NCBI RefSeq assembly: GCF_035046505.1
Contig: NC_089822.1
Location: forward strand, 101,874,659-101,938,658
Reading direction: 5' to 3'
Source of the DNA: Tiliqua scincoides
Taxonomy: Eukaryota; Chordata; Lepidosauria; Squamata; Scincidae
Length of the DNA: 64,000 nt
Below, piece by piece: positions 1-25,469 of this stretch. Within the stretch, counting starts at the first letter, position 1; every line of letters starts with the position of its first letter. The notes below the pieces were generated by a model. It worked only from the letters and a program-made list of their open reading frames with translations, made no database searches and was not told where the DNA came from. The position numbers were made by a program, and so were the translations under genes.

Positions 1-517
1 GCAGGAGGGGGGCTGGGATCCAGCAGTTATGCCGGATCTCAACCCCCGTTCCTGGGGATAACGGAGCGGCTTCAAGTCATTCTTGTCCGTCTGCCCATCC
101 ATCCTGTCGCCCACCCTCCCCAGTTTTAGGCCTTTTTAATCTAATTGACTCTAACACTATTGATGTGCACTGGCAGCACCAGGAATAAGGCTGAAGCATT
201 AAAAAGATTACATGTTAAGACTTCGTTGCCTCCTTGTTTATTTATCCTATTTGACTCAGGACCTGATTCTATCCTCCAGTTGTGCTGACAAAATATAGGT
301 TCTGGCAGTGTAACTACCATCATCCTGCAGGATTTTTCTTATGCTCTTGTATTCAAGCACATGGGCAGAAGAGAATATGAGAAAAACGCAATGGCTCTTT
401 GTAATTAAGCCTGGAAAACCTCTGCTCAGTAGATCTGAATTTTATCCATTCATTTAGCCATTTTAAGTTCATGAAATTTCCTGTTCATCTGGATAGTCTA
501 CTTTCCTGGAAGAGGCT
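1..517. other. 3' flank of first T2R gene
   Basis: There is no gene here. From about 253 onward this is the 3' flank of the T2R gene at 518-1462, and the same flank reappears inverted downstream of the T2R gene at 2551-3495. Positions 1-130 are GC-richer and unassigned. Confidence 0.6.
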
Positions 518-1462
518 TTAGGAAGATCTTTCTCTGCTGGACAGAATGCGTGTGCACACTCCTTTCAGCTTTGGATTGGTCCTTATTAAGATGATTGAGT
601 GAGCAGAAGGATATAAAGAAAAGACGATGTCAGAAACGAGTCGCTCAACTTTTCCATATATTAATATGTTAGTCATAGCAATTATCATGGTAACAAAATA
701 TAAAATATAGAAGAAAAGGAAGAACATCAGCTGTTTGATGACCTCGATATGGGCCTGAGTGCTGAAGTCTTTAGTATGAATACCGCTGTTCTTCAGATTC
801 CTGGTGTGCCTCCACAGAGAGACGATCAAAAAGATGGATGCAGTTAAGGAGATGCTGAAACTGATGGCACTGAAAGAAAATTGGAGAGGATTTAAAATCC
901 CATATAGGGATCCTTCAAGAGCCTCAGAGTGGCTTGTATTTGCTGTCAGGTTTCTTGCCAGACTGCAGGATGATTCCACTCTCCAAAAACCCACAACTGG
1001 AGAAATAGAAAAGAGGACAAAAGCTAGGATGGACATTACAAGCATGTGGGGCACAAGCCTGTCAATTCTTGACTTCAGCCAGAAGAAGAGAGGGTGGGAA
1101 AAGGTGGTGACTTTCATACAGTAGAACACGGTGAGACAGGTGGTGCCTAAGCCATTGGCCATGTTGAAATACATCCAGGCCAGAGCATCGATTTTCCATG
1201 CATAGCTACACATGTAATCCATTGGAGAGCTGACATAAATAAACTGGCCTGACAAGACAAAGCACTGCATTAAAAATCTGAAGATGCCCAGACTGGTCAG
1301 AAGAAGATCACAAGGGACAAATTTCCTGCTTTTCAACCAGCTGTGGCTGTTCACAACTATGATAAATCCATTTGCTAGTAGTGCAGCAATGGACACAATT
1401 CCAAAAATGATCAGAAGAATAATACCAAGCGGCGTAGACATGTTGTGGTCCATTGCTCTCAT
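518..1462 (-). CDS. Bitter taste receptor (TAS2R family), intact
   Basis: A seven-transmembrane type 2 taste receptor of 314 aa. T2Rs are plasma-membrane GPCRs of type II taste cells that bind bitter compounds and signal through gustducin, PLCB2 and TRPM5. Family marks: Asn of NGFI in TM1, Arg of IFRF in TM2, FYC then HPLF in TM3, two N-glycosylation sequons (NLT, NTS) in extracellular loop 2, the SLWRHTRNLK segment after TM5, and HSIILI followed by NPKLK ending TM7. The open frame extends 18 codons upstream to 1516. I chose the Met at 1462 because it aligns with the start of the 2551 gene, which has a stop in the matching upstream stretch. An acceptor-like AG (1477-1478) lies 14 nt before this ATG. 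TM2 reads TSLGIFRF where sister genes have LSIFRF. It is the head-to-head partner of 2551-3495. The exact orthologue is not assigned. Confidence 0.95.
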   Translation of the reverse strand: MRAMDHNMSTPLGIILLIIFGIVSIAALLANGFIIVVNSHSWLKSRKFVPCDLLLTSLGIFRFLMQCFVLSGQFIYVSSPMDYMCSYAWKIDALAWMYFNMANGLGTTCLTVFYCMKVTTFSHPLFFWLKSRIDRLVPHMLVMSILAFVLFSISPVVGFWRVESSCSLARNLTANTSHSEALEGSLYGILNPLQFSFSAISFSISLTASIFLIVSLWRHTRNLKNSGIHTKDFSTQAHIEVIKQLMFFLFFYILYFVTMIIAMTNILIYGKVERLVSDIVFSLYPSAHSIILIRTNPKLKGVCTRILSSRERSS

Positions 1463-1585
1463 TCTGGGATAAATGTCTGAGTAGAAACAAGTGACATGAT
1501 CATGAACAATGATCATGGGTCTCCTGGCATATGTCTGGTGGGGAATCTGCTGGGAATTTTAATAGGTGGTGCTGCACAGAAAGAC

Positions 1586-1683
1586 ATGCAAATCTCATTT
1601 GTTTTCTCTTGCAAACGATGCAAAGATGCATCATGTGGTTGTAATTGTAGGAATCAGCCAAAGGGAGATACTGAAATTTGCAT
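1586..1683 (-). promoter_or_regulatory. Paired POU octamers upstream of T2R gene 1
   Basis: ATGCAAAT lies at 1586-1593 and its reverse complement ATTTGCAT at 1676-1683, starts 90 bp apart. The nearer site is about 124 nt upstream of the ATG. The same pair recurs before all four intact T2R genes. POU2F3 (Skn-1a) binds octamers and is required for bitter taste cells in mouse; its action here is inferred. Confidence 0.5.
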
Positions 1684-1739
1684 GCTAAAACATGTAACCA
1701 TGTACAAGAAAGGTCCATTGAACATTTGCCTTACTGGCG

Positions 1740-2330
1740 GGGGCGGGGTTTACTGAGTCCCTCTGACCATGATATCATTGCTGCTTACCGACACCACTAA
1801 CCAATACATACAGCAAATGGCTAAGAAAAAATGAGGGGCACTGCATCATTAGTCATTATAAAGGGCTACATTCACAATCAATGGGATTATTAATCTCACA
1901 AAATGGAAACACCTGCATGCAGGTAAAGACCAACAAACACTGTTGTTTGGCTCCTGATGTGTCTTCACATCAAGTTCTCCAATTTAAGTAACGTGCTGGG
2001 AGTCACACAAAAAATGAAGAACTAACTCATTGTACAATCACTTTCACATGAAACATGGCTCCCATCATTCCCACAAACATACACCCTGGTTCCCCAAGCT
2101 GCAGACATCCAAGTTACGGACATTTGACTTTGGCACACGCATAGCCCAGTGTTTTTGTGAAGGTGTAAAAGCGCTAGGCGGGCAAGAGTTGTTTTGATTT
2201 GAATATGTTCCAACTTATGAACAAACTGCTGGAATGGAATTAGTCTGTATTTTGGGGACATGCAAAATGTATTGTTTGATCAAGCACTGACTTAAAATGC
2301 TGTGACACAAGCAGCGAAGGAGATACCAGG
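1740..2330 (+). other. Distal upstream block of T2R gene 2
   Basis: No gene is seen between the head-to-head T2Rs. Together with 2331-2550 this block matches, in reverse complement, the upstream regions of the other two minus-strand genes (14160-14912 and 17360-18295). It ends near 1740-1860 with the same landmark, reading GTATTGGTTAGTGGTGTC on the minus strand. A gene-4-specific MITE is absent near 1870, so this is an empty site. Confidence 0.55.
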
Positions 2331-2337
2331 CTTTGGC

Positions 2338-2435
2338 ATGCAAATTTCAATATCTTCCTTTGGCTGATTCCTACAATTACAACTACATGATGAATCTTTG
2401 CATCATTTGCAAGAGAAAACAAGTGAGATTTGCAT
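2338..2435 (+). promoter_or_regulatory. Paired POU octamers upstream of T2R gene 2
   Basis: ATGCAAAT lies at 2338-2345 and ATTTGCAT at 2428-2435, starts 90 bp apart. The nearer one is about 116 nt upstream of the ATG at 2551. Confidence 0.5.
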
Positions 2436-2550
2436 GTCTTTATGTGTAGCACCACCTATTAAAATTCCCAGCAGATTCCCCACCAGACATATGCCAGGAG
2501 ACCCATGACCATCTAATACCACTTGTTCCCACTTAGTCATTTACCCCAGA

Positions 2551-3495
2551 ATGACAGCAATAGATCGCAACATGGCTACACCACTTGGTATTATTGCTCT
2601 GGTCGTTTTTGGAATTGTGTCCATTGCCACACTACTAGGAAATGGATTTATCATAGTTGTGAACTGCCACAGCTGGTTGAAAAGGAGGAAACTGGTCCCT
2701 TGTGATCTTCTCCTGACATGTCTGAGCATCTTCAGATTTTTACTGCAGTGCTTTGCCTTGTCGCATCAGTATATTTACATCAGTTCTCCAATGGATTTCA
2801 TGTGTAACAATATATTGAAAGGAATCGGTCTGGCCTGGATGTATTTCAACATGGCCAATGTCTTAGGCACCACCTATCTTACTGTTTTCTACTGTGTGAA
2901 AGTCACCACCTTTTCCCACCCTCTCTTCCTCTGGCTGAAGCCAAGAATTGACAGGCTTGTGCCCCGCATGCTTGTAATGTCCATCCTAGCTTTTGTTCTC
3001 TTTTCTGTTTCTCCAGTTGTACGTTATTGGAGAACCGAATCATCCTGCAGTCTGACAAGAAACCTGACAGCAAATACAAGCCACTCTGAGGCTCCTGAAG
3101 GATCCCCATATATGATTTTAAAACCTCTGCAGTCCTCTTTCAGTGCTATCAATTTCAGCATCTGCTTAACTGCATCCATCATTTTGATCGTCTCTCTGTG
3201 GAAGCACACCAGGAATCTGAAGAAAAGCGGCATGGGCACTAAGGACTTCAGCACTCAGGCCCATTTCGAGGTCATCAAACAGCTGATGTTCTCCCTTTTC
3301 TTCTACATTTTGTATTTTGTTACCATGATAATTTCTATGACAGACATTTTAATGTTTGGTAACTTTGAGCGACTCATTTCTGACATTATCCATGCTTTAT
3401 ATCCTTCTGCTCATTCAATAATCTTAATATGGACCAATCCAAAATTGAAAGGAGTGTGCACACGCATTCTGTCCAGCAGAGACAGATCTTCCTAA
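2551..3495 (+). CDS. Bitter taste receptor (TAS2R family), intact
   Basis: A complete 314-aa T2R with seven predicted transmembrane helices and no disruption. Landmarks: TM1 Asn31 in GNGF, TM2 Arg62, TM3 FYC at 113-115 and HP at 123-124, loop-2 sequons at Asn171 and Asn175, intracellular loop 3 with KHTRNLKKSG near 218-227, TM7 HS at 288-289 and NPKLK at 296-300. The start is well fixed: the upstream ATG in the homologous position is followed within three codons by TAA. An acceptor-like AG at 2535-2536 after a pyrimidine-rich stretch lies 14 nt before the ATG, so a 5' noncoding exon is possible but unproven. It is nearly identical in layout to the gene at 518-1462, its inverted partner. Ligand and exact orthologue are unknown. 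Confidence 0.96.
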   Translation: MTAIDRNMATPLGIIALVVFGIVSIATLLGNGFIIVVNCHSWLKRRKLVPCDLLLTCLSIFRFLLQCFALSHQYIYISSPMDFMCNNILKGIGLAWMYFNMANVLGTTYLTVFYCVKVTTFSHPLFLWLKPRIDRLVPRMLVMSILAFVLFSVSPVVRYWRTESSCSLTRNLTANTSHSEAPEGSPYMILKPLQSSFSAINFSICLTASIILIVSLWKHTRNLKKSGMGTKDFSTQAHFEVIKQLMFSLFFYILYFVTMIISMTDILMFGNFERLISDIIHALYPSAHSIILIWTNPKLKGVCTRILSSRDRSS

Positions 3496-3758
3496 AACCT
3501 CTTTCAGGAACATAGACTATCCAGATGAACAGGAAATCTCATGAACTAAATGGCTAAATGAATGCATAAAATTTTGATATACTGAGCAGAGGTTTGCCAG
3601 GCTTAATTAGAAGGAGCCATTGCATTTTTCTCATATTCTCTTCTGCCCATGTGCTTGAATACAAGAGCATAAGAAAAATCCTGCAGGATGATGCCAGTTA
3701 CATTGCCAGAATCTGTATTCTGTCAGTGCAACTGGGGGATAGGATCAGGTCCTGAGTT

Positions 3759-4190
3759 AATTCAGCGGGAAACATTACAGGGAATGCCAGCCAAGGTAAA
3801 GAGAGCAACAACTACCAATTTTGGATTTTTATTTCCCTGCACTTCACTTTCATTGCCATCAACGTCAGCATCTGCTTAATTTCGTTCATTCTTTTGCTCA
3901 CCTCGCTGTGGAGACACACCAGGAATCTGAAAAGTAGTGGCATCGTCACCAAGGACTTCAACACTCAGGCCCATATCAGTGTGGTCAATTCTTTGTTGTT
4001 CTTTCTTTTCTTCTATATTCTATATGTTGTTGCTTTTACAACTTCTCCCAGACCTGACATTGTTCGGGGACTGGTTGCTGACCTTGCACTGTCTTTGTGT
4101 CCTCTATAATCTTAATATTGACCAATCCCAAACTGAAAGAAGTGTGCATGAGTCCTAAAAAATCAGATAAAGAACTTCATAAAGAGAAGA
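3759..4190 (+). pseudogene. T2R relic, TM5-TM7 half
   Basis: A fragment of a bitter taste receptor. The reading frame opens at 3759 in loop 2 with two sequons (NIT, NAS). It continues through TM5, then SLWRHTRNLKSSG, TKDFNTQAH and TM6, and breaks in TM7 at about 4109. The tail resumes in another frame with IILILTNPKLK near 4105-4140, consistent with a small deletion there. TM1-TM4 are missing. It abuts the 3' flank of the 2551 gene at a sharp similarity boundary. It is less like the four intact genes than they are like each other, so it is probably an older paralogue. An AATAAA follows at about 4351. Confidence 0.85.
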
Positions 4191-4350
4191 GGGCAGCAGA
4201 CACGTATCCATTGTACCCAGAAAAAAGACCACCACTCTCTTCCCCCCCCCCCGTTTGTGTAAATGTTATATATGTTTATAGATTTAAAAAATTACATTCA
4301 CAGTGTGGAGACAGTTCAATCCTGACAATTCACCCATGCTTATCTTGAAA

Positions 4351-6340
4351 ATAAAGAATATACCTATGAATATATTGGGCCTGTGATGAACGCCCTGTTT
4401 TCCCCTTTATGCCTACTTTTCTGTATTTTTTTTTTTTGACACTTTGAACTTCCCAGATGCTCCTGTGCAGGTTTGAACCTGTGCAGGTTCAGCAACCTAT
4501 GTTTCATTACTAGCAAGTGCACGTCTTTGTAGATTGGGATTCTTCTTCCTTTCTGGGATAGCTACCCCTCCTTCAGAATTGGCAAACATCTGCCAGCACT
4601 GGGAAGCAAACCGGTCTGTGTAGGTCCTGGCGATGGGTTGGAGTAACCAGGTAGGTTCCACTGCTCCAAACTTGATGACATCCACCAAAGTTATTTAGAT
4701 TCAAGCACAAAGGAAATATGTTGTTTACTGCCAATGATTCGTTTGTTGGGAGATCAGAAAAGAGCACTCAGTTACTCATTCGCACCAACTCACCAACTGC
4801 AAGGAATGGGAAGTCCTTGGACAAATGTAAGTAGTTAGCAAATAAGGACCATTTCCCCGCAGACCTATGTCAGCTATTTTGCTGGTTTAACTCCAAGGAG
4901 AGGTGGGGGTGTGCTGGAGCAGGGAGGGTGGATTAGGATCTTGGCCCATGCTGCTGCCAACAAGAGCCACCCTCTTCCTCCTCTGAAACACCCACTGTCT
5001 GGCTCATTTCCTACCCCAGTGTGCCACTGACCCTCTCCCTGCCCTACCTTACCTTTGCAGCCACCTTACCTGCACCTGTGTTGACTGGGTACAAAGCTGT
5101 CATACGCATGGAGCATCCAGTCATTAGCACTGGTTCTTGCCCTGATCCTGGCAGGGATTGATAGAATGAGAAAGCCAGCAACCCCATGGAGACTAGGGTG
5201 ATGCAAACCAAGGGGAAGGTGAATGAGAGCCTCATCTTTTGTGTTGAATGTAAAAGACATTAACATCTTTAATTTTCAGTGACAGAGCGGCATCAGCCAA
5301 TTCTTTCAATCAGCTATGGCCTTTCAGATTTCCCTGTACATTGAACTGTCCCCCCAACAGTCAAATGACACTATGAGAATGGATACAAGCAATTTCATTT
5401 GCAAAGTGCTGAGCAAACATGACACATCAACCCATAGAGTGCTCATCCACCTTCTGAGGACATGACTTAAAAGTCTGTTCTGAAAAGCTCCTACTAGATT
5501 ATGCTGTGTTGATGCAAGAGGTGCCAGAAAAGTGCTTTATTGCTTGCCATCACTGAGATAGAGTAAGCTCTAACATGGTTTCAATACTAGCCTATGTTTG
5601 GTCAGACTTGTCCTGACACTCTCTTCATCCATGCTCTAGTCACCTCCCTTGGTGTTTCACTGCTGCTGTGTGCAGTTGTACCAAGGTGCAGTTTCAGCTC
5701 CAGTTAATGCAAGAAAATGTCTCAGTGAGATTGTTCAACAGTCCTGGTCATTTCCTAAGTCTAGAAGTGGACCACGGTATCAACGTACCTGCCAGCAACA
5801 TCAGCTGAGAACTCCAAACTACATTCCAGGAACCAACTGAATCTATCAAGCTAGAGGAGGGGAATCATTGCAAACTGCTGAAATAGAGGAATTCACAAGG
5901 AATTGTCTATGACAACAAAAGAGTAATATAAATCTACTTCATCTACCAATCAGCCTCATTAACCACCATTTTGGTGGCTTCCAACTGCCACTGAATAGGG
6001 TGGTGGTGGTGGTGGTGATGATGAAGATTAAGGGCTTTGGAGTTAAAAACAACAATAAAACTCTAACAGGGACTATGCTGGAGACACCATTTTTAACCCG
6101 GATCCTTTAGCAGGATGTTTGTATGTCATCATGCAGTGCCCACTTAAGAGGGGCAGAGATAGAATAAAAGAACATGGCAGCTGGCACTCGTGGAGAGAAG
6201 CACTACACAGCTAATAAGTCCCCCCTCCAAATCCTTCTGTCAACCCCATAAATGTATGAGATGTCACTCATTCTTTCACCCCCAGCCCTCTCCAGTTTCA
6301 AGATGAAAATTCTCAACAGAGAACTGTTGCCTCAGTTCTA
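4351..6340. other. Intergenic, no gene seen
   Basis: No convincing coding or known repeat boundary was recognised. A perfect short palindrome GAACCTGTGCAGGTTC lies near 4474-4489 and a GGT microsatellite at about 6000-6020. Confidence 0.4.
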
Positions 6341-6363
6341 GTTTTCATTAGTTTTCCAACTAC

Positions 6364-6520
6364 TTGTGGAAAAGCAATGCCACAACAGCATTAACTGACT
6401 CATTGACAGCAAATACAAGCCAGACTGAAGCTTCTGGAGAATCCCCATTCTGTGCTGTCACTGTCAGCCTCTGCTTAACTGCACCCATTCCTTTGCTCTT
6501 CTCACGTGAAGACACACCAG
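6364..6520 (+). pseudogene. T2R relic, loop 2 to TM5
   Basis: A short T2R piece reading SLTANTSQTEASGESP followed by a shortened CAVTVSLCLTAPIPLLFS. It matches loop 2 and TM5 of the gene at 13058-14158, including the TEASGESP signature, but lacks about nine residues between them. It ends where it meets CR1-derived DNA. The rest of the receptor is absent. With its right flank it forms an inverted, heavily deleted copy of the 12.3-13.7 kb region. Confidence 0.75.
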
Positions 6521-6529
6521 AAGTCCATC

Positions 6530-6690
6530 CAAACAGTTGGCTGTCACCTCTTTTTGTGGCACTGAATGAAGCAGACAAAACATGCACTGTGCGATGAAGT
6601 ATCTGCTTTTGTCTATCCTCTTATCTTTGCCAATCTGTTTCACTGTGAGGGGCAAAGTTTCTAGAACTGGCTCCTTATATGGCATACAGT
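6530..6690 (-). mobile_element. CR1-type LINE fragment
   Basis: The minus strand reads DKSRYF...FCLL...VTANCLDG, the C-terminal tail of CR1-like reverse transcriptases. A counterpart lies at 12660-12800 on the plus strand, so the LINE insertion predates the inverted duplication. Confidence 0.55.
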
Positions 6691-6696
6691 CCTATG

Positions 6697-7527
6697 CCTA
6701 TGATGGACACGCGTGTGGAGGGCTCGGTAGGAGAAGTTACTGCCAGGGAGAATTGGGGGTGCCTGAACTTACCTAGTTCCAAAAGAAGTCATGGTGGCTT
6801 AGGAAGTGGTCTGCACCAACAGTTTATTCTCATTAGGTTCTTTACATTCATCTGGCCTCTGTTATGTCACAGGAGCCAGTGCAATGTCCATTCCCCAAGA
6901 TGAATGGTGCCAAGGCACCTGTTCCACTTCCCAGCACTGGGGTTTGCTGTCTTTCAGGTCCTGCCGGCAGTGGGGTTGTCTGCAGGGGCCACACTAGGGG
7001 TGGTCTGGGGGAAGCCCCTGGCCAGTGCTAGAGCAAGGTAGTGTTGAGGGCGATTGCCTGGTTACTAGCTGGGGAGCAGCTGTCACCCCTGGTACTTCCC
7101 AAAGGTTGGCTCTCCATCCTCCCAAGTACAGGGACTGAGGAGCCCCCAGAGGCTGGGGGGGGGGGAAAGCAGCCCTTATGCCCTGCCTGGGGTGGGTCAT
7201 CCTCAATGAGTAGGACCCTCCACCCTCCCCAAGGGTTCTGACAGCCTTTTCCAGGCCAGGAACAGGCCTCAGTAAGGATGGGGGGATGCAAACCTTCCCC
7301 CCAACCTCAGGAAGGAGCAACCTCTTCCTATGGCTGCCAGGCTCTTTATGAACCCAGCAGCCAACCCAGCCGGCCCCACCCCTTCCAGCCATGTGACCAG
7401 CCTGGGTCCTACTTCCTGGGAGACCTCCTGCCTGGGGGCCAGATCCAGGCAGTACTCTCTCTGCTCCCTACTCCCGAGGAGACCCCTGCTCCCAAGTAGA
7501 CCTGCGTCGCTTGGGCCTGGCCCGAGT
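6697..7527. other. GC-rich insertion of unknown type
   Basis: GC-rich block absent from the inverted counterpart at 12.6 kb, so it was either inserted here or lost there. Long overlapping open frames run in several frames on both strands, as expected from base composition alone. No known domain was recognised. Confidence 0.45.
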
Positions 7528-7876
7528 GACATCTCCCTTAGAAGGGAACTCTTCCCTTTGGGAGGGAATTTTGGCTGGAATTCTGATAACCCTTTTCCTG
7601 CCAATTACCCCCTTGAACTGCTGAGTTAAACTAATGCAAGCAATCATTCAAAGTCGGAAATTTTTACCACAACTGGATGACCCCTGTATTAATACTATTT
7701 TTTATTACTATTTTATAAAATTGTAGGGTAAGTTAGATAAACAAGAGGACAAAGAGTGTCTTTTAATATATTGTATACATTAGTGAGAACCTTGAATTTT
7801 GGTAGTCTGCTGCAATATTTTCCACTTCCCTTAGTAATCTGCAATGTAAATACATTTACAAATATGTACAAGCGAA

Positions 7877-8206
7877 CCCATTCCAGGGCCTCCTTGCAGA
7901 TACAAAAACAGCAGATATAGGGGAACCCTGTCTCCGCTATTCCCGTGCACTTTTGCCTGCACAGCCATTTATGCTGTTTAGGTTCTCATGGGGCAAAGAT
8001 ATTCTTGCCTTTATAAGTCTCTATAAGATCAGTGCTAACAGGAAGCAGGACGTTCACTGCTTTCTGTTAGCGTCAATCTAGACTTTTCAAGGATTCAGGC
8101 TGCGGGCAGGCTGCCTGTGCATCACTATAAGCTTGAATGCTATAGCAACCTGTAAATGCAAGAACATCTTTGCTCCGTTGTATGTGTTTTACTGTAAAGT
8201 CACTGT
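7877..8206. other. Intergenic, no gene seen
   Basis: No coding sequence or recognised repeat boundary was found. Confidence 0.35.
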
Positions 8207-8298
8207 GGGCAAAATCCTAACCAGGTCTAGTCAGAAGTAAGTCCTATTTTGTTCAATGGGGCTTACTGTCAGGAAAGTGTGGTTAGGATTGCAGCCTG
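8207..8298. mobile_element. Palindromic MITE (TAGGATTGCAG type)
   Basis: A 90-bp element with inverted ends (AAATCCTAACC left, GGTTAGGATTGCAGCC right) and core AGTAAGTCC/GGGGCTTACT. It is one of at least eight copies in the window. Confidence 0.6.
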
Positions 8299-8329
8299 TA
8301 ACAGTAACTGGGTCTGACTCCTGGTCCTC

Positions 8330-8530
8330 TCTCCCTATAGCAGCGTACATGGTAGCAATGACCTGTCAATCACTATGGCAGTTGGGGGATGATTGATTGA
8401 GGACAGTTTGAGGACAGTTGATTTTTTGATTGACAGTTGATTGATTGAGGACAGTTGAAACAGAACAGTTGAGACAGTGACAATTAGACTGAAAAGTGGA
8501 AGAGGACAGTTTGGGAGAAAAGCTGCCCTT
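8330..8530. repeat. Degenerate GAGGACAGTT tandem repeat
   Basis: The motifs GAGGACAGTT and GATTGATTGA recur irregularly over about 200 bp. No gene is seen. Confidence 0.5.
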
Positions 8531-8875
8531 AAAGGTTATCTCAGATGCAGCTAATGAAGGCGACTATAGTGCACCAAAGTTTATGCTGAAATTAAGGGAT
8601 AACTCTTTAAGGGCCCAACTCATTAAGGGCTTACCTCTGGTGTGCACTGTTGCAAAAGTGCCGTAAGGGGAAGACAAGACACATATGTATGTGTGTCATA
8701 TCATTAAATGTGCGGGGCCCAGGGATGGGAACCTGAATCAGGTGACTCGAGTCAGAGTGGTGAAAATCAGCGTTTTTCCGCTGACTCATTTACACTTGAG
8801 TTGCTCATATAGAAGTCTGGGAAAAACACTCAACATTTAAAAAATATATCCATGGACCCAGTATCTGCAGATCGA

Positions 8876-9340
8876 CAGCACAATCCTGTGCTCCTGTGGC
8901 ATGTGACTGCGGCGGCACCGAAAACAGCTGCCGCCACATCCAGCGCACCCACGGCAGTAGCAGACGACACCTCAGGAGAAGGGGACATTCGTCTTCTTCT
9001 CCCGGGTAAGGGAAGTAGCCCCGCAATGGGGCTACTCGATTCACCGCCAACCAAAAGGTGGACGGTGAGGGAAGAGCGTTCATGTAGGGCATCGAGCCCC
9101 ATACAAACACTCTTGATCCGGTGGAACAGAGCTCCACCGGACCCGCCTCCCTCCCTCTCCGCTCTCTCCCCCCGGCACACCTCCTCCCCACCCTCTCCCC
9201 ACCTCCCACCTCCCCGGAACGCCTCCTCCCCGCCTCCCACCTACTTACCTTACCATGACACGGCAGTCTGTGCAACCACTGAGCGGCAGAGGCTGGGCGC
9301 CTGCCCAGCACTAGCCCAGTGCCAGCCAACGCCAGCCCCT
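8876..9340. mobile_element. GC-rich nonautonomous DNA element, truncated
   Basis: It resembles the element at 27674-28104, sharing GCCGAAAACAGCT, a CTCAGGAGAAGG-like stretch, CCCGGGTAAGGGAAG and GCAATGG. It carries only one of the CCCAATCCT-type ends. Long minus-strand open frames here reflect composition. Confidence 0.5.
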
Positions 9341-9342
9341 TG

Positions 9343-10585
9343 CTACAGGAAGTAGTGACAGCATCTTGCCTAGATACCTTTAAGAGGGGATTGGACAAAT
9401 TGCTGGAGGAAATGTGTTACGTGAAAATCCCCTTTTTCCCTTCCAAGTTGTGTTTTTATATCTAGTTATGTATTTTGGACTATACAGACCAAGCAAGCAG
9501 GCCACTCCTCCCCCAGCACATGTTTCTAAGGGCCATGGCCAAGCTACAAGCACATGAATTACACAACCCCCAATTCCTTGCAGGTCAATGTAGAACCTAA
9601 TCACTGTGTCTCCGGATTATGCAAAACAAGCCTGCACCAGAGGAAAAGGTCTATTGTTCTGTTGTTGTACTCTTAAGCACCTTATGCAGATTGCATCCCT
9701 CCAACCAGAAGGTCAGCCTGGCTGGTAAGCTGCCTTCCTTCCGGTTCATCACATACTCCACGTGTACCATTGTGTGTTACTGAGCATGCCCACAGCTCTG
9801 GGATACTTCCGGTCAGTTTAGATTGACTTCCAGGTCAGACAACTCTTATAAGAGAGAACGCAGAGTTCAGGTCTCTCTCTCTCTATGACTGCCCACCTGC
9901 TAGAGGGGCCATACACAGGACTCTCTTCATCCAACTGTTCCCCCCCACAGGTAAATATATCGTGCGTCTAAACTTCCCCCCCCTTCTTCCCTACCTATTC
10001 CTCCCTTCTCCCCCCATCTTTAGTCAGCAACTGGGTTTAGCAGATTAAGGAACCTCTAAAATACCTTCCTACACCCTAACCATTTCTGTTTCCTTTTCGG
10101 ATGCACACAAATACATAGCACATGCATCCACCACGAGTTAGGTACACCAGACAAGTATATACTTATCGATTCTCCATGTGTATTATGTTACCTTTGTGTG
10201 TTTTTGCAATAAAAATATGATCCTTTGATTGAAAGTTACCTTCATCCCAGTCTCATTAAGCTAAACAAGGGATTTCTTTGCTCTACGCTGTCTTGTATCC
10301 AGCCTATGGTCCCAAAAGTTTCCAGAAGGCTAATATAAATAATTCCCCTAAACAAAACAGCCTTTTTGGTAACAAATGTTCATCAGGTTACAAGTCATGG
10401 TAGGTATGTGTAAGGTAGAGGTAGGCTGCCTCTGATTGCCAGATGCTGGGGAGGGCACCAGGATGCAGGTTGGGTCTGTTGTCTGGTGTGTTCCCTGAAG
10501 CATTTGGTGGGCCACTGTGAGATACAGGAAGCTGGACTATGTCTTTGGCCTGATCCAGCGTGGCTCTTCTTATGTTCTTATGTAC
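9343..10585 (+). mobile_element. CR1 LINE 3' end, split by an LTR
   Basis: 9343-9414 encodes the CR1 C-terminus (LDTFKRGLDKLLEE-like). 10381-10585 continues with the CR1 3' untranslated region and its terminal TTCTTATG repeats. A solo LTR at 9415-10376 separates the two. Confidence 0.7.
9415..10376 (+). mobile_element. Solo LTR, family 2 copy 1 (fossil)
   Basis: A 962-bp long terminal repeat beginning TGTTACGTGAAAATCCCC and ending GGTAACA, flanked by perfect 4-bp target duplications AATG (9411-9414 and 10377-10380). AATAAA lies near 10209. No internal coding region remains. It sits inside a CR1 element and is younger than it. A related copy lies at 34634-35776. Confidence 0.8.
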
Positions 10586-10599
10586 ACATGCCAGGAATG

Positions 10600-11190
10600 C
10601 ACACATCACTAAATGTGTAGGGCCAGTAAGGCAAGATATGGTTCATCCAAACCAACCCCCTCTGAATTATCTGTTACGTGAAGTAATACACCCATTTGTC
10701 TACCTTCAACCCATTGCTAAACAGCTTAAACTCCTTCCCTTACCCTCTATTTATTCACTCCAAATCCACACCCACCCACCGGGGAGTTTCCATTCCTGTG
10801 CACAACATATTGGAAAATTCTGCAGGGGAAATTGGAAGTTGGGATAAAAGTTAAACATGCACCATGCACTCTCTTCTGCTGCTGGTTGCCCCCTCCCAAT
10901 GCAGCATTTCATGGGACCACCTGGCTACCATTATCCACATTTGCATGCAGTGTTTGACCTGGCGCTAATCAATGACCTTTACCTGGAAATGTCAAACAGG
11001 AACTGATGCTTGGTTGATCCCACCCAGCTCCAGGATGGATAACAACTTCATTTCATCTGTGCTTCCATTATCATTGGTAAGCGCTGCTTAGCTCACTGGA
11101 TATTTCTGGCATACGAGCCACGAAGAGTGCACAAACCTATTCCAGTCCCTACCTGATCTGCTTTTGCCTCGTGACAGGAATAGTACAGAG
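10600..11190 (+). repeat. Dispersed duplicate of 39690-40255
   Basis: About 590 bp similar in direct orientation to 39690-40255, including CTGGTTGCCCCCT, ATTTGCATGCAGTGTTTG and GGATAACAACTTCATTTCATC. It has no long open frame. It could be an undescribed interspersed repeat or duplicated regulatory DNA. Confidence 0.6.
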
Positions 11191-12264
11191 GACACTGAAG
11201 GAAATAAGGAACCCAGACTGTGGTTGTAGTAAAGCTGAGTTAAATTTTATTATGGTAAAAGGCACAGAAAACAGCATCAAACAGCTTATCAGAACCAATT
11301 TTCCCTCAGTTTCTCATGCTGGCTTTCTTCATATGGCAACACACTGGATTTGAACAGATCGGGGATGTCTGGTCCATCAGGTGAGTTGGTTCACTCTGAT
11401 GATGGAATGCTCAGGGTAACCCAACTGACTGACTTCCAGAAAAATCTCCAGGGAGCCTGAGCTCCTCTTCATATAGCCCAGCTGGTTCACACGGCATGCT
11501 AGTTCTATACATGGCACTACTGTTCAGGCTGCATTCTTTTTTAAGCATCCAACACGCTCAGGTTGCATTTGTTTTTCAAATTCTAGACACATTAGAATTT
11601 TGAAAAGCGAATCTGAAGTTAGAAATGATAGCTGCCACCATGCAGACATCACTTCTGTCTATTTTCTACAGGGTGACCCCCCAAAAACAGAACCCATAAA
11701 AATTTTATTAAATCCTACAAAGGTCCAGTAAATTTCAAGAAACTTACTGGACTCAAACTTCAATCTGTGTACGATTATTCCCCAAAGTTTCAGTTATCTT
11801 TGTCGCTTTGCATAAAAGTCATGTTCTTTCCAAAGAAAAATTAAAATTAACAGTTTTATTCAAAGATTTGTGGGTTTTGTTTTTTTTTGGGGTCATCCTG
11901 TATTATAAAGAATGCAGGAACATATCAGGAATATGGCAGCCTTCATAATATATGGTAACACCCTGGCAATCTCCACACAATTGACTTCAATGAAGGGACA
12001 CCATTTTGTCATTTATTTAATGAGCTGCTAGCATGCTGGCTGACTCCAACACCGCCCTTGCCCCCTTTTTCTGGTACTGGGATAATTAAGTAGCTGGTTC
12101 GACATTCCCTCAAACCAAATCTCAAGGAAAATTAAATTTGAAAATCAGGGAATTAAACTATTAAACCACCTCAGCTCCAAGAACGTTCTTTTCTCCACCC
12201 ACCCACCCATCAAACACACCGGTTTTAGGCCTTGTTAATCTGACTGTAACAGTTAGTATTGAGT
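11191..12264. other. Intergenic, no gene seen
   Basis: AT-rich DNA without a recognisable gene or repeat boundary. Confidence 0.35.
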
Positions 12265-12790
12265 GTACATATTTGTAAAGGACTAAATACAATGCAGATT
12301 AGTAAGGGAAGTGGAAAATGTTGCAGCAGACTACCAAAATTCAACGTTCTCACTAATGTGCACAATAATATTAAAAGACTTCCTTTGCCCTCTTGTTTAT
12401 CTAACTTACCCTACAGTTTTATAAAATAATAATAACAAATAATGTTAATATAGGGATCAACAAGTTGTGGTAAAAATTTCCAGCTTTGAATGGTTGTTTG
12501 CATTAGTTTACCTCAGGAGTTCAAGGGGATAATTGGCAGGAAAAGGGTTATAAGAATTCCAACCGAATTCCAACCTAAAGGGAAGAGTTCCCTTCTAAGG
12601 GAGGATAGGACTGCATGCCATATAAGGAGCCAATTCTAGAAAGTTTGCCCCTCACAGTGAAACTGATTGGCAAAAATATAGGATGGACAAAAGCAAATAC
12701 TTCTTCACACAGCACATATTTTGTCTACTTTGTTCATTGCTCCAAGAAGAGGTGATAGCCAACTGCTTGGATGGCTTTCAAAGGGCATGG
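12265..12790 (+). repeat. Inverted duplicate of 6530-7876
   Basis: 3' flank of the 13058 T2R gene. It corresponds in reverse complement to DNA flanking the T2R relic at 6364-6520, so each copy keeps the T2R-to-flank arrangement. Confidence 0.65.
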
Positions 12791-12800
12791 AAGCAATTCA
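12660..12800 (+). mobile_element. CR1-type LINE fragment
   Basis: The plus strand reads DKSKYFFTQHIF...CLDGFQRA, matching the CR1 C-terminal tail. It is shared with the inverted copy at 6530-6690. Confidence 0.6.
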
Positions 12801-13057
12801 CGGAGTATAGTCTATTAGTATAGTCTACCTAGAGATGTGTGGAACTGTCCACAAGGGGCATAAGTATTCTTAGCTCATTCTCCTTCAACTCAGTGTCCTG
12901 TAGCACCTCAGAGTTATCCCTTTAATAGAGTAAAAGAGCGAGCACTATTAATGACCATGTGCTGTATCCAGGTTCAAGGGATTATACCTGTGAATGCCAA
13001 CAGCAAGGAACCAATGGCAGTACAGAGCAATGGCTGTTGTGGACTTCTTCCAGTGAG

Positions 13058-14158
13058 CTACACAGAATAGAACAAATCAGAAAAATTCAACAACTTCTGG
13101 TTGTTAAGCCTGCAAAACCTATGCTCTGTTGATCTGAATTTTATCCATCCATTTAGCCATTTTAAGTCCATGAGATTTACTGTTCTGCCGGATAGTCTAC
13201 TTTCCTGGAAAAGCCTGTAAGAAGATCTTTCTCTGCTGGACATAATGCGTGTGCATGCTCCTTTCAGTTTTGGATTGGTCCGTATTAAGATTATTGAGTG
13301 AGCAGAAGGATATAAGGACAGGACAGTGTCAGAAATTAGTCGGTCCACTTCACCGTACTTTAATATATTACCCGAAACAATTATATTGGTAACAAAATAT
13401 AAGATGTAGAAGAAAAGGAAGAACATCAGCTGTTTGATGACCTCAATATGGGCCTGAGTACTGAAGTCTTTAGTGTGAATACTGCTCCTCTTCAGATTCC
13501 TTGTGTGCCTCCACAGAGAGAAGAGAAGAAAAATGGATGCAGTTAAGCAGATACTGAAATTGACGGCACAGAAAGAGAACTGCAGAGGTCTGAAAAACAC
13601 ATATGGGGATTCTCCAGAAGCTTCAGTGTGGGTTGTATTTGCTGTCAGGTTTCTTGCCAGACTGCAGGTTGTTTTTATTCTCCAAAAACTCAAAGCTTCA
13701 GGAAGGGAAAAGAAGACTATAGCTATGATGGACATTACAAGCATGTGGGGCATAAGCCTGTCAATTCTTGACTTCAGCCAGAGGAAGAGAGGGTGGGCAA
13801 AGGTGGCGACTTTCACACAGTAGAAAACAATGAGATATGTGGTGCCTGAGAAGTTGGACATGTTGAAATACATCCAGGCCAGACCAGCTGTTTTCCATGC
13901 ATAGCTACACATGTAATCCACTGGAGAGCCGATGTACATACATTGATTTGAGAAGGAAATGCACTGGAGCAAAAATCTAGTGATGCTCAGATATGTCAGG
14001 AGAAGTTCGCAAGGGACCAGTTTCCTCCTTTTCAACCAGCTGTGGCTGTTCACAACTATGATAAATCCATTTCCTAGTAGTGCAGCAATGGACACAATTC
14101 CAAAAATGATCAGAAGAATAATACCAAGCGGCGTAGACATGTTGTGGTCCATGATCAT
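13058..14158 (-). CDS. Bitter taste receptor (TAS2R family) with C-terminal extension
   Basis: An intact T2R frame of 366 aa, about 50 residues longer than its sisters. The receptor body has all family marks: GNGFI in TM1, ITRF in TM2, FYCVK and HPLFLWLK around TM3, loop-2 sequons NLT and NTT, RHTRNLKRSS, and HSIILI plus NPKLK in TM7. Sister genes stop right after RERSS or DRSS. Here the TAA codon reads TAC, and translation continues through former 3' flank (YRLFQESRLSG...) to the TAA at 13058. The N-terminus also differs: about 55 bp present upstream of sister starts are missing between ATGATCA and TGGACC. This removes the conserved acceptor-like site and makes MIMDHNM the start. Function is likely retained; whether the long tail is tolerated is unknown. 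Confidence 0.92.
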   Translation of the reverse strand: MIMDHNMSTPLGIILLIIFGIVSIAALLGNGFIIVVNSHSWLKRRKLVPCELLLTYLSITRFLLQCISFSNQCMYIGSPVDYMCSYAWKTAGLAWMYFNMSNFSGTTYLIVFYCVKVATFAHPLFLWLKSRIDRLMPHMLVMSIIAIVFFSLPEALSFWRIKTTCSLARNLTANTTHTEASGESPYVFFRPLQFSFCAVNFSICLTASIFLLFSLWRHTRNLKRSSIHTKDFSTQAHIEVIKQLMFFLFFYILYFVTNIIVSGNILKYGEVDRLISDTVLSLYPSAHSIILIRTNPKLKGACTRIMSSRERSSYRLFQESRLSGRTVNLMDLKWLNGWIKFRSTEHRFCRLNNQKLLNFSDLFYSV

Positions 14159-14159
14159 G

Positions 14160-14912
14160 GGTCTCCTGGCATATGTCTGGTGGGGAATCTGCTGGGAATT
14201 TTAATAGGTGGTGCTACACAGAAAGACATGCAAATCTCATTTGTCTTCTCTTGCAAATGATGCAAAGATTCATCATGTGGTTGTACTTGTAGGAACCTAC
14301 CAAAGGGAGATATTGAAATTTGCATGCCAAAGCCTGGTATCTCTTTCGCTGCTTGTGTCACAACACTTGAAGTTGGGGCATCATCAAATAATACATCTTA
14401 CATACTTACAGTCCCCAAGATATATACTAGCCCCATTCCATTGGTCTGTCTGTAAGTTGGAATATACTTAAATTGAAATAGCTCTTGCTGGCCCAGTGCT
14501 TCTGCGCCTGCACAAAAACATAACAATAGATGGACTATGTTGAGTGAAGGTGCCAAAGGCTCTGTCTGCAAGTCAGACATCCACAACATGGATGTCTGTA
14601 GCTTGGGGACCCAGGGTGTATGATTTGTGGGAATGGTGGGAGCCTTGTTTCATGTGAAAGTGTTGTACAATGATTCAGTTTTTGTGTGACTCCAATACAT
14701 GTTACTGAAATTGGAAGGCTTGATGTGAAGATAGCAGGAGCCAAACAACAGACTTGTGCTTGTAGGCAGGATGTTGTGATCATGAATCATCTTCTTAAGA
14801 TGATGTCAAACTTCTCCCTTCTACCACCCACCTCCATTTTCTTTGGCCTTTACCCAAACAGTACTTGTTCAGTGATGGGGTCAGTAAGCGGCATTGCTAT
14901 CATGGTCTAGGG
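14160..14912 (-). other. Conserved upstream block of T2R gene 3
   Basis: Matches the upstream regions of the genes at 2551 and 16390 over about 750 bp and ends with the GTCAGTAAGCGGCATTGC landmark. A hAT element is inserted at its outer edge. No gene was found. Confidence 0.55.
14228..14325 (-). promoter_or_regulatory. Paired POU octamers upstream of T2R gene 3
   Basis: ATGCAAAT lies at 14228-14235 and ATTTGCAT at 14318-14325, starts 90 bp apart. The nearer is only about 70 nt from the ATG because of the local 55-bp deletion. Confidence 0.5.
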
Positions 14913-16050
14913 CAGTGGTTCCCAAACTGGTGGGTCATGACCCACCAGACAGGAAAGCACTTATCCCTGCCCCTTTAAGGGGTGGGGAGGGGAGATTTCA
15001 GAAACATGATCCCCAGGATCATGCTGCTGTTAGGGACTGGGTTTTTTTAAAACTGACCTCCAGCCAGCACTGGAGTTCTGGTAGGAAAAATCTGGTACTT
15101 CCATTTTTGTTGCAAAACTGGAAATGCCCATTTTTTCCCCTTTTTCTCACTTACAGAGGCTCAGGGAGCCCTATGGAGGGTTCCTTAAACCCCCTGGACC
15201 TCCCAGAATTCCAGCGCTGGCTGGAGGTAAGTTTTTTTTTTTAAAAAAAAACCTCCTCCTGTCCCCGGTAGCAATGCGATCCTGGGGATTGCAATGCTGC
15301 AGTCCTCCTGCCCCAGCAAACACAGGTCCAACCTTGTTATACCTGGATTTTTATATACAAATTTGACTCAACACGAATGGCCACTGCAAATGAGAAGGAA
15401 TGTGCTGATCCCTGGAGAAGGGGAAAATGCATCCCTTTAAAATTTAAAAAACTGCTTTTCGTACTGTTGTAGAGAGACAGTCATGCAAGCAATTACAGGA
15501 ATAACCTAATTATCCACGGATTTTACTATCTCAGTGTGATGAGAAGGGTCCTTTAAACTAAAACAGTCATTTAACAATAGCTTCGTTAATGCGAGAGAGG
15601 GCAGCCAGCTGACAGTCCATCAATCATTCTCTCTCCAGGCACTTAGTTCAGTTCAGTTCAGTAAGACCTTTATTGGCATAAAAACTCCAGGCACTTAGAA
15701 CAGCTTCACTCTGAGGCAGCTTCACTCTGAGTCCCCTTCCCCCTGAGCATGTAAAGAAAGATAATCACTTTGCTCTGGGTGAAGGGAGGGGTCGCTGGAT
15801 CTGATTGAAGCCTTTCTAAGCTCCTGGAGAGAGGCTGATGGATCAATTGTCTGCCAAGTAACTCTTGTCTTACATCGCATAGGTCAGCAAGGCTGTTTGT
15901 AAATCTCCTAGCAAAGGGACATTGCTTTTAAAATGAATTTGCGATTTTTGCCATCCATGTGAGTTCTGGGAGCAGAACCCTAGCGAATAATGAGATTCAA
16001 GCTGTACTTATGTGGTTCCCTCCTCCTAAGAAGAACTTTAGGAACCACTG
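14913..16050. mobile_element. hAT-type nonautonomous DNA transposon
   Basis: 1138 bp with terminal inverted repeats CAGTGGTTCCCAAAC and CTTTAGGAACCACTG, flanked by a perfect 8-bp target duplication GTCTAGGG (14905-14912 and 16051-16058). No transposase frame was found. A nested piece near 15640-15690 contains CTTTATTGGCATAAA, the reverse complement of a LINE-like 3' tail. Confidence 0.88.
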
Positions 16051-16243
16051 GTCTAGGGGTCTCAGGAAGCCCACCCCCCCAGGCCGTAAGGCAATAGTCC
16101 ACTGGGCTTTACTTGTACACAGTTGCATGTAACATATCTCTTTTTATTATAATATTTCTACTTGTCTTTTGACATAAAATGGCCTCAAGCAGCTTACTAT
16201 AATAACAGACTCCTTGAAGGAAGGATAGTATATAAATGCAACA

Positions 16244-16258
16244 CTCACACACACACAC

Positions 16259-16294
<36 letters not shown>
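16244..16294. repeat. CA/GA microsatellite
   Basis: A run of CA dinucleotides followed by GA dinucleotides, just beyond the 3' end of the T2R gene at 16390. Confidence 0.9.
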
Positions 16295-16300
<6 letters not shown>

Positions 16301-16307
16301 AATGTGG

Positions 16308-16355
16308 AAGGGCTGTTTTGTTTGAAACAGCCCTTTTGTTTGAAGGGCTGTTTTG
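16308..16355. repeat. Short inverted plus direct repeat
   Basis: AAGGGCTGTTTT and AAACAGCCCTT form a possible hairpin, followed by a second GAAGGGCTGTTTTGTTTG. It lies about 35-80 nt past the stop of the T2R gene, so it may be transcribed in its 3' UTR. Confidence 0.5.
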
Positions 16356-16389
16356 TTTGCCTCTCACCGTGGCAAAGGGGGAAGAGGCT

Positions 16390-17331
16390 TTATGAAGCTC
16401 TGTCTCTGCTGGGCAGAATGTGTGCAAATGCTCCTCTCAGTTTTGGATTGGTCCATATTAATATTATTGAGTGAGCAGAAGGATAAAAGGACAGGATGAT
16501 GTCAGAACTTAGTCGCCCTTCAATAAACTTTAAAACATTATGCAGAGAAATCATCATGGTAACAAAATATAAAATATAGAAGAAAAGGAAGAACATCAGC
16601 AGTTTGATGACCTTGATATGGGCCTGAGTGCTGAGGTCCTTAGTGCCCATGCCACTTTTCTTTAGATTCGTGGTGTGCTTCCACAGAGAGACGATCAAAA
16701 TGATGGATGCAGTTAAGCAGATGCTGAAACTGATGGCACTGAAAGAAAATTGGAGAGGATTTAAAATCCCATAAAGGGATCCTTCAAGAGCCTCACAGTG
16801 GCTTGTATTTGCTGTCAGGTTTCTTGCCAGACTGCAGGTTGATTCCATTCTCCAAAAACCCACAACTGGAGAAACAGAAAAGAGGACAAAAGCTAGGATG
16901 GACATTACAAGCATGAGGGGCACAAGCCTGTCAATTCTTGACTTCAGCCAGAGGAAGAGAGGGTGGGAAAAGGTGGTGACTTTCACACAGTAGAACATGG
17001 TGAGACAGGCGATGCCTGAGAAGTTGGCCATGTTGAAATACATCCAGGCCAGGCCAGTTCCTTTCCATGCATAGCTACACATGTAATCCATTGGAGAGCT
17101 GATGTGAATATATTGACCCAACAAGACAGCGCACTGCAGCAAAAATCTGAAGATGCTCAGACATGTCAGAAGAAGCTCACAAGGGACCAGTTTCCTGCTT
17201 TGCAACCAGCTGTGGCTGTTCACAACTATGATAAATCCATTTCCTAGTAGTGCAGCAATTGACACAATTCCAAGAACGATCAGAAGTATAATACTATGTG
17301 GTGTAGCCATACTGCGGTCCATTGCTGTCAT
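16390..17331 (-). CDS. Bitter taste receptor (TAS2R family), intact
   Basis: A complete 313-aa T2R. Landmarks: GNGFI in TM1, CLSIFRF in TM2, FYCVKVTTFSHPLFLWLK around TM3, loop-2 sequons NLT and NTS, KHTTNLKKSG after TM5 (most sisters have HTRN), and HSIILIWTNPKLRG at TM7. Met at 17331 aligns with the start of the 2551 gene; the open frame continues nine codons upstream to 17358. An acceptor-like AG (17346-17347) lies 14 nt before the ATG, as in the 518 and 2551 genes. The last residues (AHILPSRDRAS) diverge from sisters, and the 3' flank is replaced after the stop by microsatellite DNA. Same orientation as the 13058 gene and probably a tandem duplicate of it. Confidence 0.95.
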   Translation of the reverse strand: MTAMDRSMATPHSIILLIVLGIVSIAALLGNGFIIVVNSHSWLQSRKLVPCELLLTCLSIFRFLLQCAVLLGQYIHISSPMDYMCSYAWKGTGLAWMYFNMANFSGIACLTMFYCVKVTTFSHPLFLWLKSRIDRLVPLMLVMSILAFVLFSVSPVVGFWRMESTCSLARNLTANTSHCEALEGSLYGILNPLQFSFSAISFSICLTASIILIVSLWKHTTNLKKSGMGTKDLSTQAHIKVIKLLMFFLFFYILYFVTMMISLHNVLKFIEGRLSSDIILSFYPSAHSIILIWTNPKLRGAFAHILPSRDRAS

Positions 17332-17444
17332 TCTAGGATAAAAGTCTAAGTTGAACAAATGACATTAAATGATCATGAGTCTTCTGGCAGATATGTGTGG
17401 GGAATCTGCTGGGAATTTTAATAGGTGGTGCTACGCATAAAGAC

Positions 17445-17536
17445 ATGCAAATCTCAGTTGTTTTCTCTTGCAAATGATGCAAAAATGCATCATGTGGTTG
17501 CAAGGATTTGCCAAAGGGAGATATTGAAATTTGCAT
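17445..17536 (-). promoter_or_regulatory. Paired POU octamers upstream of T2R gene 4
   Basis: ATGCAAAT lies at 17445-17452 and ATTTGCAT at 17529-17536, starts 84 bp apart. The nearer site is about 114 nt from the ATG. Confidence 0.5.
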
Positions 17537-18631: not shown

Positions 18632-18750
18632 AAGTCTCGAAAGACTATGGTATAAGCCTACAGCACCCAGTATTCCCAGGCGGTCTCCCATCCAAGACTA
18701 ACCAGGCCTGACCCTGCTTAGCTTCCAAGATCAGGCATGTGCAGGGTAAC
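18632..18750 (-). mobile_element. 5S-rRNA-derived SINE
   Basis: The minus strand carries the 5S rRNA gene hallmarks GGAAGCTAAGCAGGGTC, GATGGGAGACCGCC and GGGTGCTGTAGGC, then a tail GCTTATACCATAGTCTTTCG. The 5' part of 5S is missing or diverged. The non-5S tail, shared with 29288-29352, shows this is a SINE and not a 5S gene. Confidence 0.85.
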
Positions 18751-18759
18751 AGTTGCTGT

Positions 18760-19878
18760 CACAGGCTAACAAAACAGTACAGGTCACCCAACAAATAAGT
18801 AACCAACAAAAAACCAGTGGCCAGCTTGATGACACTCACACATCTGAATCACAGTTCTAGTATTAGCTCTGATACATGGAAATGAGGTCTGACTTATACT
18901 TAACACCTCATTGGTTCCCTGCGGTGTTGTAATAATACCTCATTGGATCTCACTGGTCAGTTTTGAATTAATAAAATCTATTTTTTGTTTTTATTTATTT
19001 ATTTTTATTTACTTTATTTATGCACTGCCTTTCTCCCCACACTCAAAGCAGTTGTGTTTTCCAGACATACTAAGGCTTTTGTGGCTGGATGAGTTCAAAG
19101 TGTAATTTGAAATGTTTCTTGAATCTTTAAGTCATGGACTACATTGTAGGATCTAGTCCCAATGTTTCACTTTCAGCTGTGGAAAGCATCTTCAGGGGTT
19201 ACAAAGAATTGTGTCCTCTGAACTATTAGCTGGTCACGAGCTTAACTGCCAGTTCCTGCTTGCGTTTAACAGAGGTTTAACTTCTGGGTTAGGAGCTGAG
19301 CCTTACACAACACCACCAGCAATACAGGCAACAGTATTTCAAGGCACACTCAAAAGGGAACTAGAGAAAGGCAAAACCGGAAGTAGAGTGCGATCGCTCT
19401 ACTTTAACTTCAAAGCGGCTGGGGAGCCCTGCAGATGCTTGCACAGGGCTCCCCGCACCCCCAGGACGCTGCTGCAGGGACTGGTGAGTACATCCCAGTC
19501 CCTGCAGCCCTGTTAGTGATGCAATCCTGGGGATCGCATCGCTGCCTTCCCCCCTGTCCCCACCCCTTAAGGGGGCAGAGGCCAGGGCCCTCAGGCTGGG
19601 TTATCACGATGCCCCAGTCTGAATACCACTGCATTTCTGGAATGTTTGTTCTTCCTGGTATACCATACTTTGATACTCAAAGGTTAGGACCGAGAGAAAT
19701 GGGAAAGAGTGGGTTGAGGGCAGGATCATGGCAACATTCAGGTTTGGAGCTAGAAAGGGGGCTCCTTCAGGGTCAGGGTCAGATCCATAGGCTTATCTCA
19801 GGCAACTGAAGTAACCTGGATACTCATGAAACAGCATGTGCTATTTCTCTTTAAGATTGCTTGGTTTTGGAAGCTAAG
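18760..19878. other. Intergenic, repeat-derived
   Basis: No gene. 19450-19620 resembles the GC-rich interior of the hAT-like elements at 15.2 kb and 59.7 kb (AATCCTGGGGATCGCAT). Confidence 0.4.
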
Positions 19879-24539: not shown

Positions 24540-25469
24540 TCAACAAGATCTGCACTTCTGCAGAATTTTAATCAAGGCCCTTTTCACATCCTTGTTTTTC
24601 AGACTGTATATCATGGGATTGAACAAGGGAATGACAATGCTGTAAAAGAGAGAAATCATTTTGTCCTGACCTGGGGAATGACTAGCCTCAGGCCTCATGT
24701 ACATAAATATGGCACTGCCATAGAAGAGCACCACCACCAAGGCATGGGAGGCACATGTGGAGAAAGCTTTGCGCTGACCTTGTGCAGATTGGATTTTCAA
24801 GATGGCAACCAGGATGCAGATGTAAGTCATCATAATAAAGGAAATAGGGATAAGCAAGGTGAAAATGCAACCCACTGAAGTAACCTTTTCAATCACTTCG
24901 GTGTCAGCACATGCCAGCTTCAGCAATGCTGGCATTTCACAGAAAAAGTGATCGATGACATTGGACCCACAAAACGGTAACTGCCAGGTGAGGACAGCGT
25001 GTGCCACTGGCAATAAAAGGCCACAAGTCCAGGCTGCCATGGCCAGCTTCAGGCACACTCTTTTGTCCATGAGGAATGTATAGTGAAGAGGGTGACAAAT
25101 TGCCACATATCTATCATAAGCCATCACTGCAAGGAGGATACACTCTGTTGTGGCCAAAGCTAGGAAGACATACATCTGTATAGCACACCTGGGCAATGAG
25201 ATGGGCTTCTTTGGAGTATGGAGGTTGATCAACATCTGAGGAACCGTGCTGGAAGTATAGCAAATGTCCACACAGGCAAGTTGGCTCAAGAAGAAATACA
25301 TGGGAGTGTGGAGACGGGAATCCAGCCATATGAGCATCATTATGATCATATTGCCCATCAGAGTGATGATGTAAGTCACAGAAAAAAGTCCCAAAAGCAA
25401 CAGACGGATTTTCAGGCTCCTGGAGAGACCAAGCAGGAGGAATTCAGTCACAAAAGTTTGGTTCCACAT
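24540..25469 (-). CDS. Olfactory receptor, OR2A-like, intact
   Basis: A full-length 309-aa class II odorant receptor, a ciliary GPCR that would signal through Golf in olfactory neurons. Motifs: N-glycosylation Asn3 (NQT), GN at 39-40, LHTPMYFFLS at 53-62, TM3 Cys95, MAYDRY at 116-121, KAFSTCASH at 234-242 and NPMIY at 284-288. The opening NQTFVTEFLLLG and LDSRLHTPMYFFLS resemble mammalian OR2A proteins. 22 nt before the ATG lies a strong acceptor (CTTTTTCCTGTGCACAG on the minus strand), typical of OR genes with noncoding 5' exons. The paralogue at 36478-37407 shares this site and the flank and differs at about 42 of 309 residues by my hand count. No disruption is visible. Confidence 0.96.
   Translation of the reverse strand: MWNQTFVTEFLLLGLSRSLKIRLLLLGLFSVTYIITLMGNMIIMMLIWLDSRLHTPMYFFLSQLACVDICYTSSTVPQMLINLHTPKKPISLPRCAIQMYVFLALATTECILLAVMAYDRYVAICHPLHYTFLMDKRVCLKLAMAAWTCGLLLPVAHAVLTWQLPFCGSNVIDHFFCEMPALLKLACADTEVIEKVTSVGCIFTLLIPISFIMMTYICILVAILKIQSAQGQRKAFSTCASHALVVVLFYGSAIFMYMRPEASHSPGQDKMISLFYSIVIPLFNPMIYSLKNKDVKRALIKILQKCRSC

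Follow-up and report, generated by a model that had tools for sequence, protein, structure and literature searches.

A conserved block with paired octamers and a TATA-like box upstream of four duplicated T2R genes: a candidate POU2-class promoter

The window (the whole stretch of DNA analysed, 64 kb) contains four T2R genes. Each is a single uninterrupted ORF whose protein matches nearly the full TAS2R domain profile (Pfam PF05296; E 4e-65 to 4e-72).

518..1462, (-): T2R gene 1; ORF with Pfam TAS2R match, E=5e-67; start codon aligned with that of gene 2
2551..3495, (+): T2R gene 2; Pfam TAS2R, E=3.5e-72; head-to-head with gene 1
13058..14158, (-): T2R gene 3; 366-aa ORF with a longer C-terminus; ~49 bp of leader deleted
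16390..17331, (-): T2R gene 4; Pfam TAS2R, E=4e-65

The proteins of the other three genes are 71-80% identical to that of gene 2. Values of dN/dS of about 0.55-0.75 at dS of about 0.18-0.24 make the four look like functional, fairly recent duplicates, and large T2R expansions are known from some lizards (PMC11641376; PMC5564386). Self-comparison of the window reveals one duplicated unit behind all four genes. Genes 1 and 2 form an inverted, head-to-head duplicate (508-3760). The upstream DNA common to genes 2, 3 and 4 extends over more than 500 bp from the ATG. Gene 1 has the shortest shared upstream DNA: it is homologous to the other units only as far as 1689, 6 bp past its far octamer (see below), and the DNA beyond that point matches what stands upstream in the unit of gene 2 (compare gene 4). 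Gene 1 also has an extra in-frame ATG upstream, at 1516, which would add 18 residues if used. Gene 3 has lost the usual stop, with ~50 residues of read-through, and its start has been joined to a former upstream ATG through the leader deletion. Two further pieces, at 3741-4147 and 6364-6504, are T2R pseudogene fragments that lack the 5' half. Neutral controls for the upstream DNA were sought among these T2R pseudogenes of the window, but both are without the upstream block, because no more of the gene is left than its second half or a piece from the middle. A search for T2R relatives in viral contigs and prokaryote genome contigs found none.

On the gene strand, all four T2R genes present the same layout: a far octamer, ATGCAAAT, then a near octamer in the opposite orientation, ATTTGCAT, then, further down, a TATA-like box, TATTAAAA, and the gene. 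All eight octamers are exact matches.

1676..1683, (-): gene 1, far octamer, ATGCAAAT on the gene strand
1586..1593, (-): gene 1, near octamer, ATTTGCAT on the gene strand
1559..1564, (-): gene 1, TATA-like TATTAA, 21 bp below the near octamer
2338..2345, (+): gene 2, far octamer, ATGCAAAT
2396..2412, (+): gene 2, two one-mismatch octamers, CTTTGCAT and ATTTGCAA; their cores, TTTGCATC and TTTGCAAGAGAA, are invariant in all four copies
2428..2435, (+): gene 2, near octamer, ATTTGCAT
2457..2462, (+): gene 2, TATA-like TATTAA, within a 35-nt invariant run
2338..2508, (+): gene 2, putative promoter block, from the far octamer to TATA+52; the reference block
14318..14325, (-): gene 3, far octamer
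14251..14267, (-): gene 3, two one-mismatch octamers
14228..14235, (-): gene 3, near octamer
14201..14206, (-): gene 3, TATTAA
17529..17536, (-): gene 4, far octamer
17468..17484, (-): gene 4, two one-mismatch octamers
17445..17452, (-): gene 4, near octamer
17418..17423, (-): gene 4, TATTAA

A scan for exact octamers returned the eight sites at the coordinates and on the strands given by the initial annotation. The far and near octamers start 90, 90, 90 and 84 bp apart in genes 1-4, the shorter spacing of gene 4 being due to a 6-bp deletion between its octamers. Relative to the aligned ATGs (1462, 2551, 14158 and 17331), the near octamers start at -131, -123, -77 and -121 and the far octamers at -221, -213, -167 and -205. 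These near-octamer positions agree with gaps to the ATG of 114-124 nt, and of 70 nt in gene 3, that had been noted before. The short gap of gene 3 had been put down to a 55-bp deletion. The deletion is indeed there, but alignment makes it ~48-49 bp against genes 2 and 4 and ~57 bp against gene 1.

Since the four genes go back to one duplicated unit, the octamer pair would have been in the ancestor once. Judged from this self-comparison, a single ancestral pair was passed on to four copies and did not arise four times independently, so that the octamers count as one observation. The window contains 15 exact octamers (shuffled sequences average 5.15, with a largest count of 10), and the T2R pairs make up eight of them. 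Gene 1 has a single one-mismatch octamer between its pair (the other genes have the two listed above), and the T2R blocks take four of the top five places when the octamer clusters of the window are ranked by density. The probability of at least two exact octamers in one preset 170-bp block is ~7e-5 at the composition of the window, a generous figure in that the motif was picked after the sequence had been seen. A hairpin between the paired octamers was considered and dropped on its dimensions: its arms would be ~10 bp and its loop ~80.

In each of the four genes exactly 21 bp separate the near octamer from the TATA-like box. Neither this box nor the one-mismatch octamers had figured in the initial annotation. 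Genes 1 and 3 have their large indels below the octamer-TATA unit, and its spacing stays at 21 bp. Composites of ATTTGCAT, a gap of 12-35 nt and TATTAA number four in the window, against 0.02 expected, the four copies again standing for one ancestral event. These figures bear on whether A+T-rich words merely happen to match the octamer. An inverted exact pair (ATGCAAAT / ATTTGCAT, at 55353/55396) does turn up elsewhere in the window, and the top cluster score in a set of 30 simulated 64-kb sequences equals that of the T2R blocks. The rarity of the composite, 0.02 per window, and the location of the sites just above a TATA-like box and a gene nevertheless make chance a very improbable explanation. 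The pair outside the T2R cluster (55353-55403; starts 43 bp apart, with one-mismatch copies too) lies in DNA in which no T2R similarity and no RNA family match were detected; it may be due to chance or be an unannotated element.

Alignments of all four units, and of genes 2-4 with longer flanks as well, delimit a conserved block of ~170 bp that begins at the far octamer and ends 52 bases beyond the first base of the TATA-like box. Pairwise divergence is 0.05-0.10 within the block and 0.12-0.27 in sampled regions above it; against the pooled upstream flank, Fisher tests give P=1.8e-5, 8e-3 and 1.5e-3 for the three testable pairs. On the other side, the leader just before the ATG diverges by 0.24 between genes 2 and 4, more than the block does (P=0.014), and it is in the leader that genes 1 and 3 have their large indels. 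Being less divergent than its flanks, the block is bounded, as expected of a proximal promoter. Compared with fourfold-degenerate sites of the genes, the block has changed more slowly in pairs 1-2 (P=0.004) and 2-3 (0.02), marginally so in pair 1-3 (0.055), and not in the pairs with gene 4. With P<0.05 in only two of the six pairs, the conservation of the block could be due in part to gene conversion or chance.

Could shared ancestry and gene conversion alone account for everything, with the octamers as passengers in an ordinary promoter? The site patterns among the four copies conflict region by region, as conversion would have it, the comparison with fourfold sites fails to reach significance in the other four pairs, and the octamers are not specially conserved, as set out below. 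Conversion should also be shared by the DNA just above the block and the leader just below it, yet both diverge more, and two exact octamers and a TATTAA in one 170-bp block are improbable by chance. We consider this explanation unlikely.

The initial annotation had also contended that both 8-mers are unchanged in the four copies while neighbouring bases differ. Letter by letter this is correct, but the contrast is not significant. None of the 16 octamer columns varies, whereas the block to the ATG has 24 variable columns among 166 (hypergeometric P 0.072); against the interval between the octamers P is 0.043, against the adjacent 8-bp flanks 0.15 (Fisher), and 8.6% of disjoint 8-column word pairs in the block are equally invariant. 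The proposition that octamer columns are better kept than their neighbours, once run as a check, is unsupported by four paralogs alone. With four such recent copies the octamers cannot be singled out from the block and are not demonstrably more conserved than the rest of it. The longest invariant run (35 nt, AGCACCACCTATTAAAATTCCCAGCAGATTCCCCA) lies around the TATA-like box, not around an octamer. Apart from the octamers and their one-base shifts, no invariant 8-mer has a reverse complement that is invariant too, an observation that is suggestive but post hoc.

An octamer, ATTTGCAT or ATGCAAAT, upstream of a TATA box is the hallmark of immunoglobulin V-gene promoters, where it is bound by OCT1 or OCT2 with OCA-B. 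In promoters of this type the start of transcription is placed some 25-30 bp below the TATA-like box, and the octamer is needed for cell-specific expression. The V-type layout, a perfect octamer at a short fixed distance above a TATA-like box, is found in all four T2R genes, with ATTTGCAT in the orientation reported for fish light-chain genes. The listing for torafugu IGLV genes gives ATTTGCAT and 27 nt before TTTAAA; IGLV2 has TATTAA as its box (PMC5241823), as do the T2R genes. Octamer and TATA occur in nearly all immunoglobulin promoters, and in synthetic form the two together are enough for activity specific to lymphocytes (PMC13043367). The differences are that a T2R gene is a single-ORF GPCR gene and not a V segment, that it has a second octamer 84-90 bp further out, and that the expected factor is POU2F3, not OCT2. 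Genes 1-3 have an identical short upstream ORF, ATGCCAGGAGACCCATGA (MPGDP; 2491-2508 in gene 2), roughly where transcription is predicted to start; gene 4 has lost it.

POU2F3 acts as master factor in tuft cells and in the taste cells for sweet, umami and bitter, and in the mouse Skn-1a/POU2F3 is required for T2R-expressing cells. The T2R octamer is contained in the published POU2F3 motif, TATGCAAATC (PMC10920751). OCA-T1 with OCT11/POU2F3 needs an A at octamer position 5 (PMC13043367), and this A5 is kept in all eight T2R octamers, each of them an exact ATGCAAAT. In both features the T2R sites resemble the POU2F3-OCA-T1/OCA-T2 elements of tuft cells and SCLC-P, with the difference that the published analysis concerns enhancers in human cancer cells. 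A search of the open-access literature found no POU2F3 occupancy of T2R genes or promoters; nor did it find a report of octamers in T2R promoters, so that novelty is not established.

The octamer is also bound by OCT1, OCT2 and other POU factors. The block might accordingly be a real, conserved core promoter whose octamers serve a POU protein other than POU2F3, OCT1 for instance, which may be ubiquitous, with cell specificity coming from elsewhere, for example a distant enhancer or chromatin. That the longest invariant run falls on the TATA-like region and not on an octamer would suit this arrangement, and so would the regulatory element proposed as common to clustered mouse Tas2r genes (PMC5670347). 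The mouse Tas2r143/135/126 cluster promoter resembles the present case in serving clustered T2R genes for which common regulation is proposed; the portion of its account cited here names no transcription factor (PMC5670347). Set against a different POU protein are the sufficiency of a synthetic octamer plus TATA for cell-specific expression in B cells (PMC13043367) and the dependence of T2R-expressing cells on POU2F3 in the mouse, which makes that protein the natural occupant. On balance, use by a different POU protein seems rather improbable, though not as much so as an origin of the whole pattern in ancestry and conversion.

The interpretation that we favour, to which we give an even chance on sequence grounds, is that a recently duplicated T2R subfamily has this block as its proximal promoter and that a POU2-class factor binds there, most likely POU2F3 with OCA-T1/OCA-T2. 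The promoter would predate the duplications and would be kept by purifying selection. With a POU2-class factor on the near octamer, the transcription machinery would be placed over the TATTAAAA box that follows after 21 bp, to which TBP would bind; the far octamer and the weaker octamer-like words would provide added binding sites and raise occupancy. POU2F3, with OCA-T1 and OCA-T2 as coactivators, would be the likeliest such factor in taste or tuft-like cells. A direct link between POU2F3 and these genes was what the initial annotation had proposed. As to a conserved proximal promoter with octamers, the conservation of the block, the octamer-like words and the fixed octamer-21 bp-TATTAA arrangement speak for it. 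The sequence itself establishes the sites, their constant geometry and the conserved block; promoter function, the place of the transcription start, POU binding and the step to POU2F3 are what we infer.

In kind the T2R block is ordinary, an octamer-TATA promoter; it is interesting for its gene family. We suggest, tentatively and with more doubt than confidence, that T2R genes are driven by a core promoter in the immunoglobulin V style, on which POU2F3 and OCA-T1/T2 would act in chemosensory cells as OCT2 and OCA-B do on V genes in B cells. If this is true, paralogous factor-coactivator pairs apply the same promoter logic to two fast-evolving receptor families. So compact a promoter would make direct POU2F3 control of T2R genes simple to test. 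It would also account for the way in which a new T2R duplicate such as gene 1, whose shared upstream DNA amounts to only ~225 bp, could stay expressed in the right cells.

Two other kinds of sequence in the window may be mentioned. The stretch 18655-18766 is 5S rRNA-like (Rfam, 43 bits) and probably a 5S-derived SINE; a nearly identical overlapping piece of 48 bp lies at 29288-29335. Olfactory-receptor ORFs lie in the same window as the T2R cluster, at 24540-25469 and 36478-37407 (309 aa each), with a truncated one at 57278-57859; the Pfam search covered the first and third.
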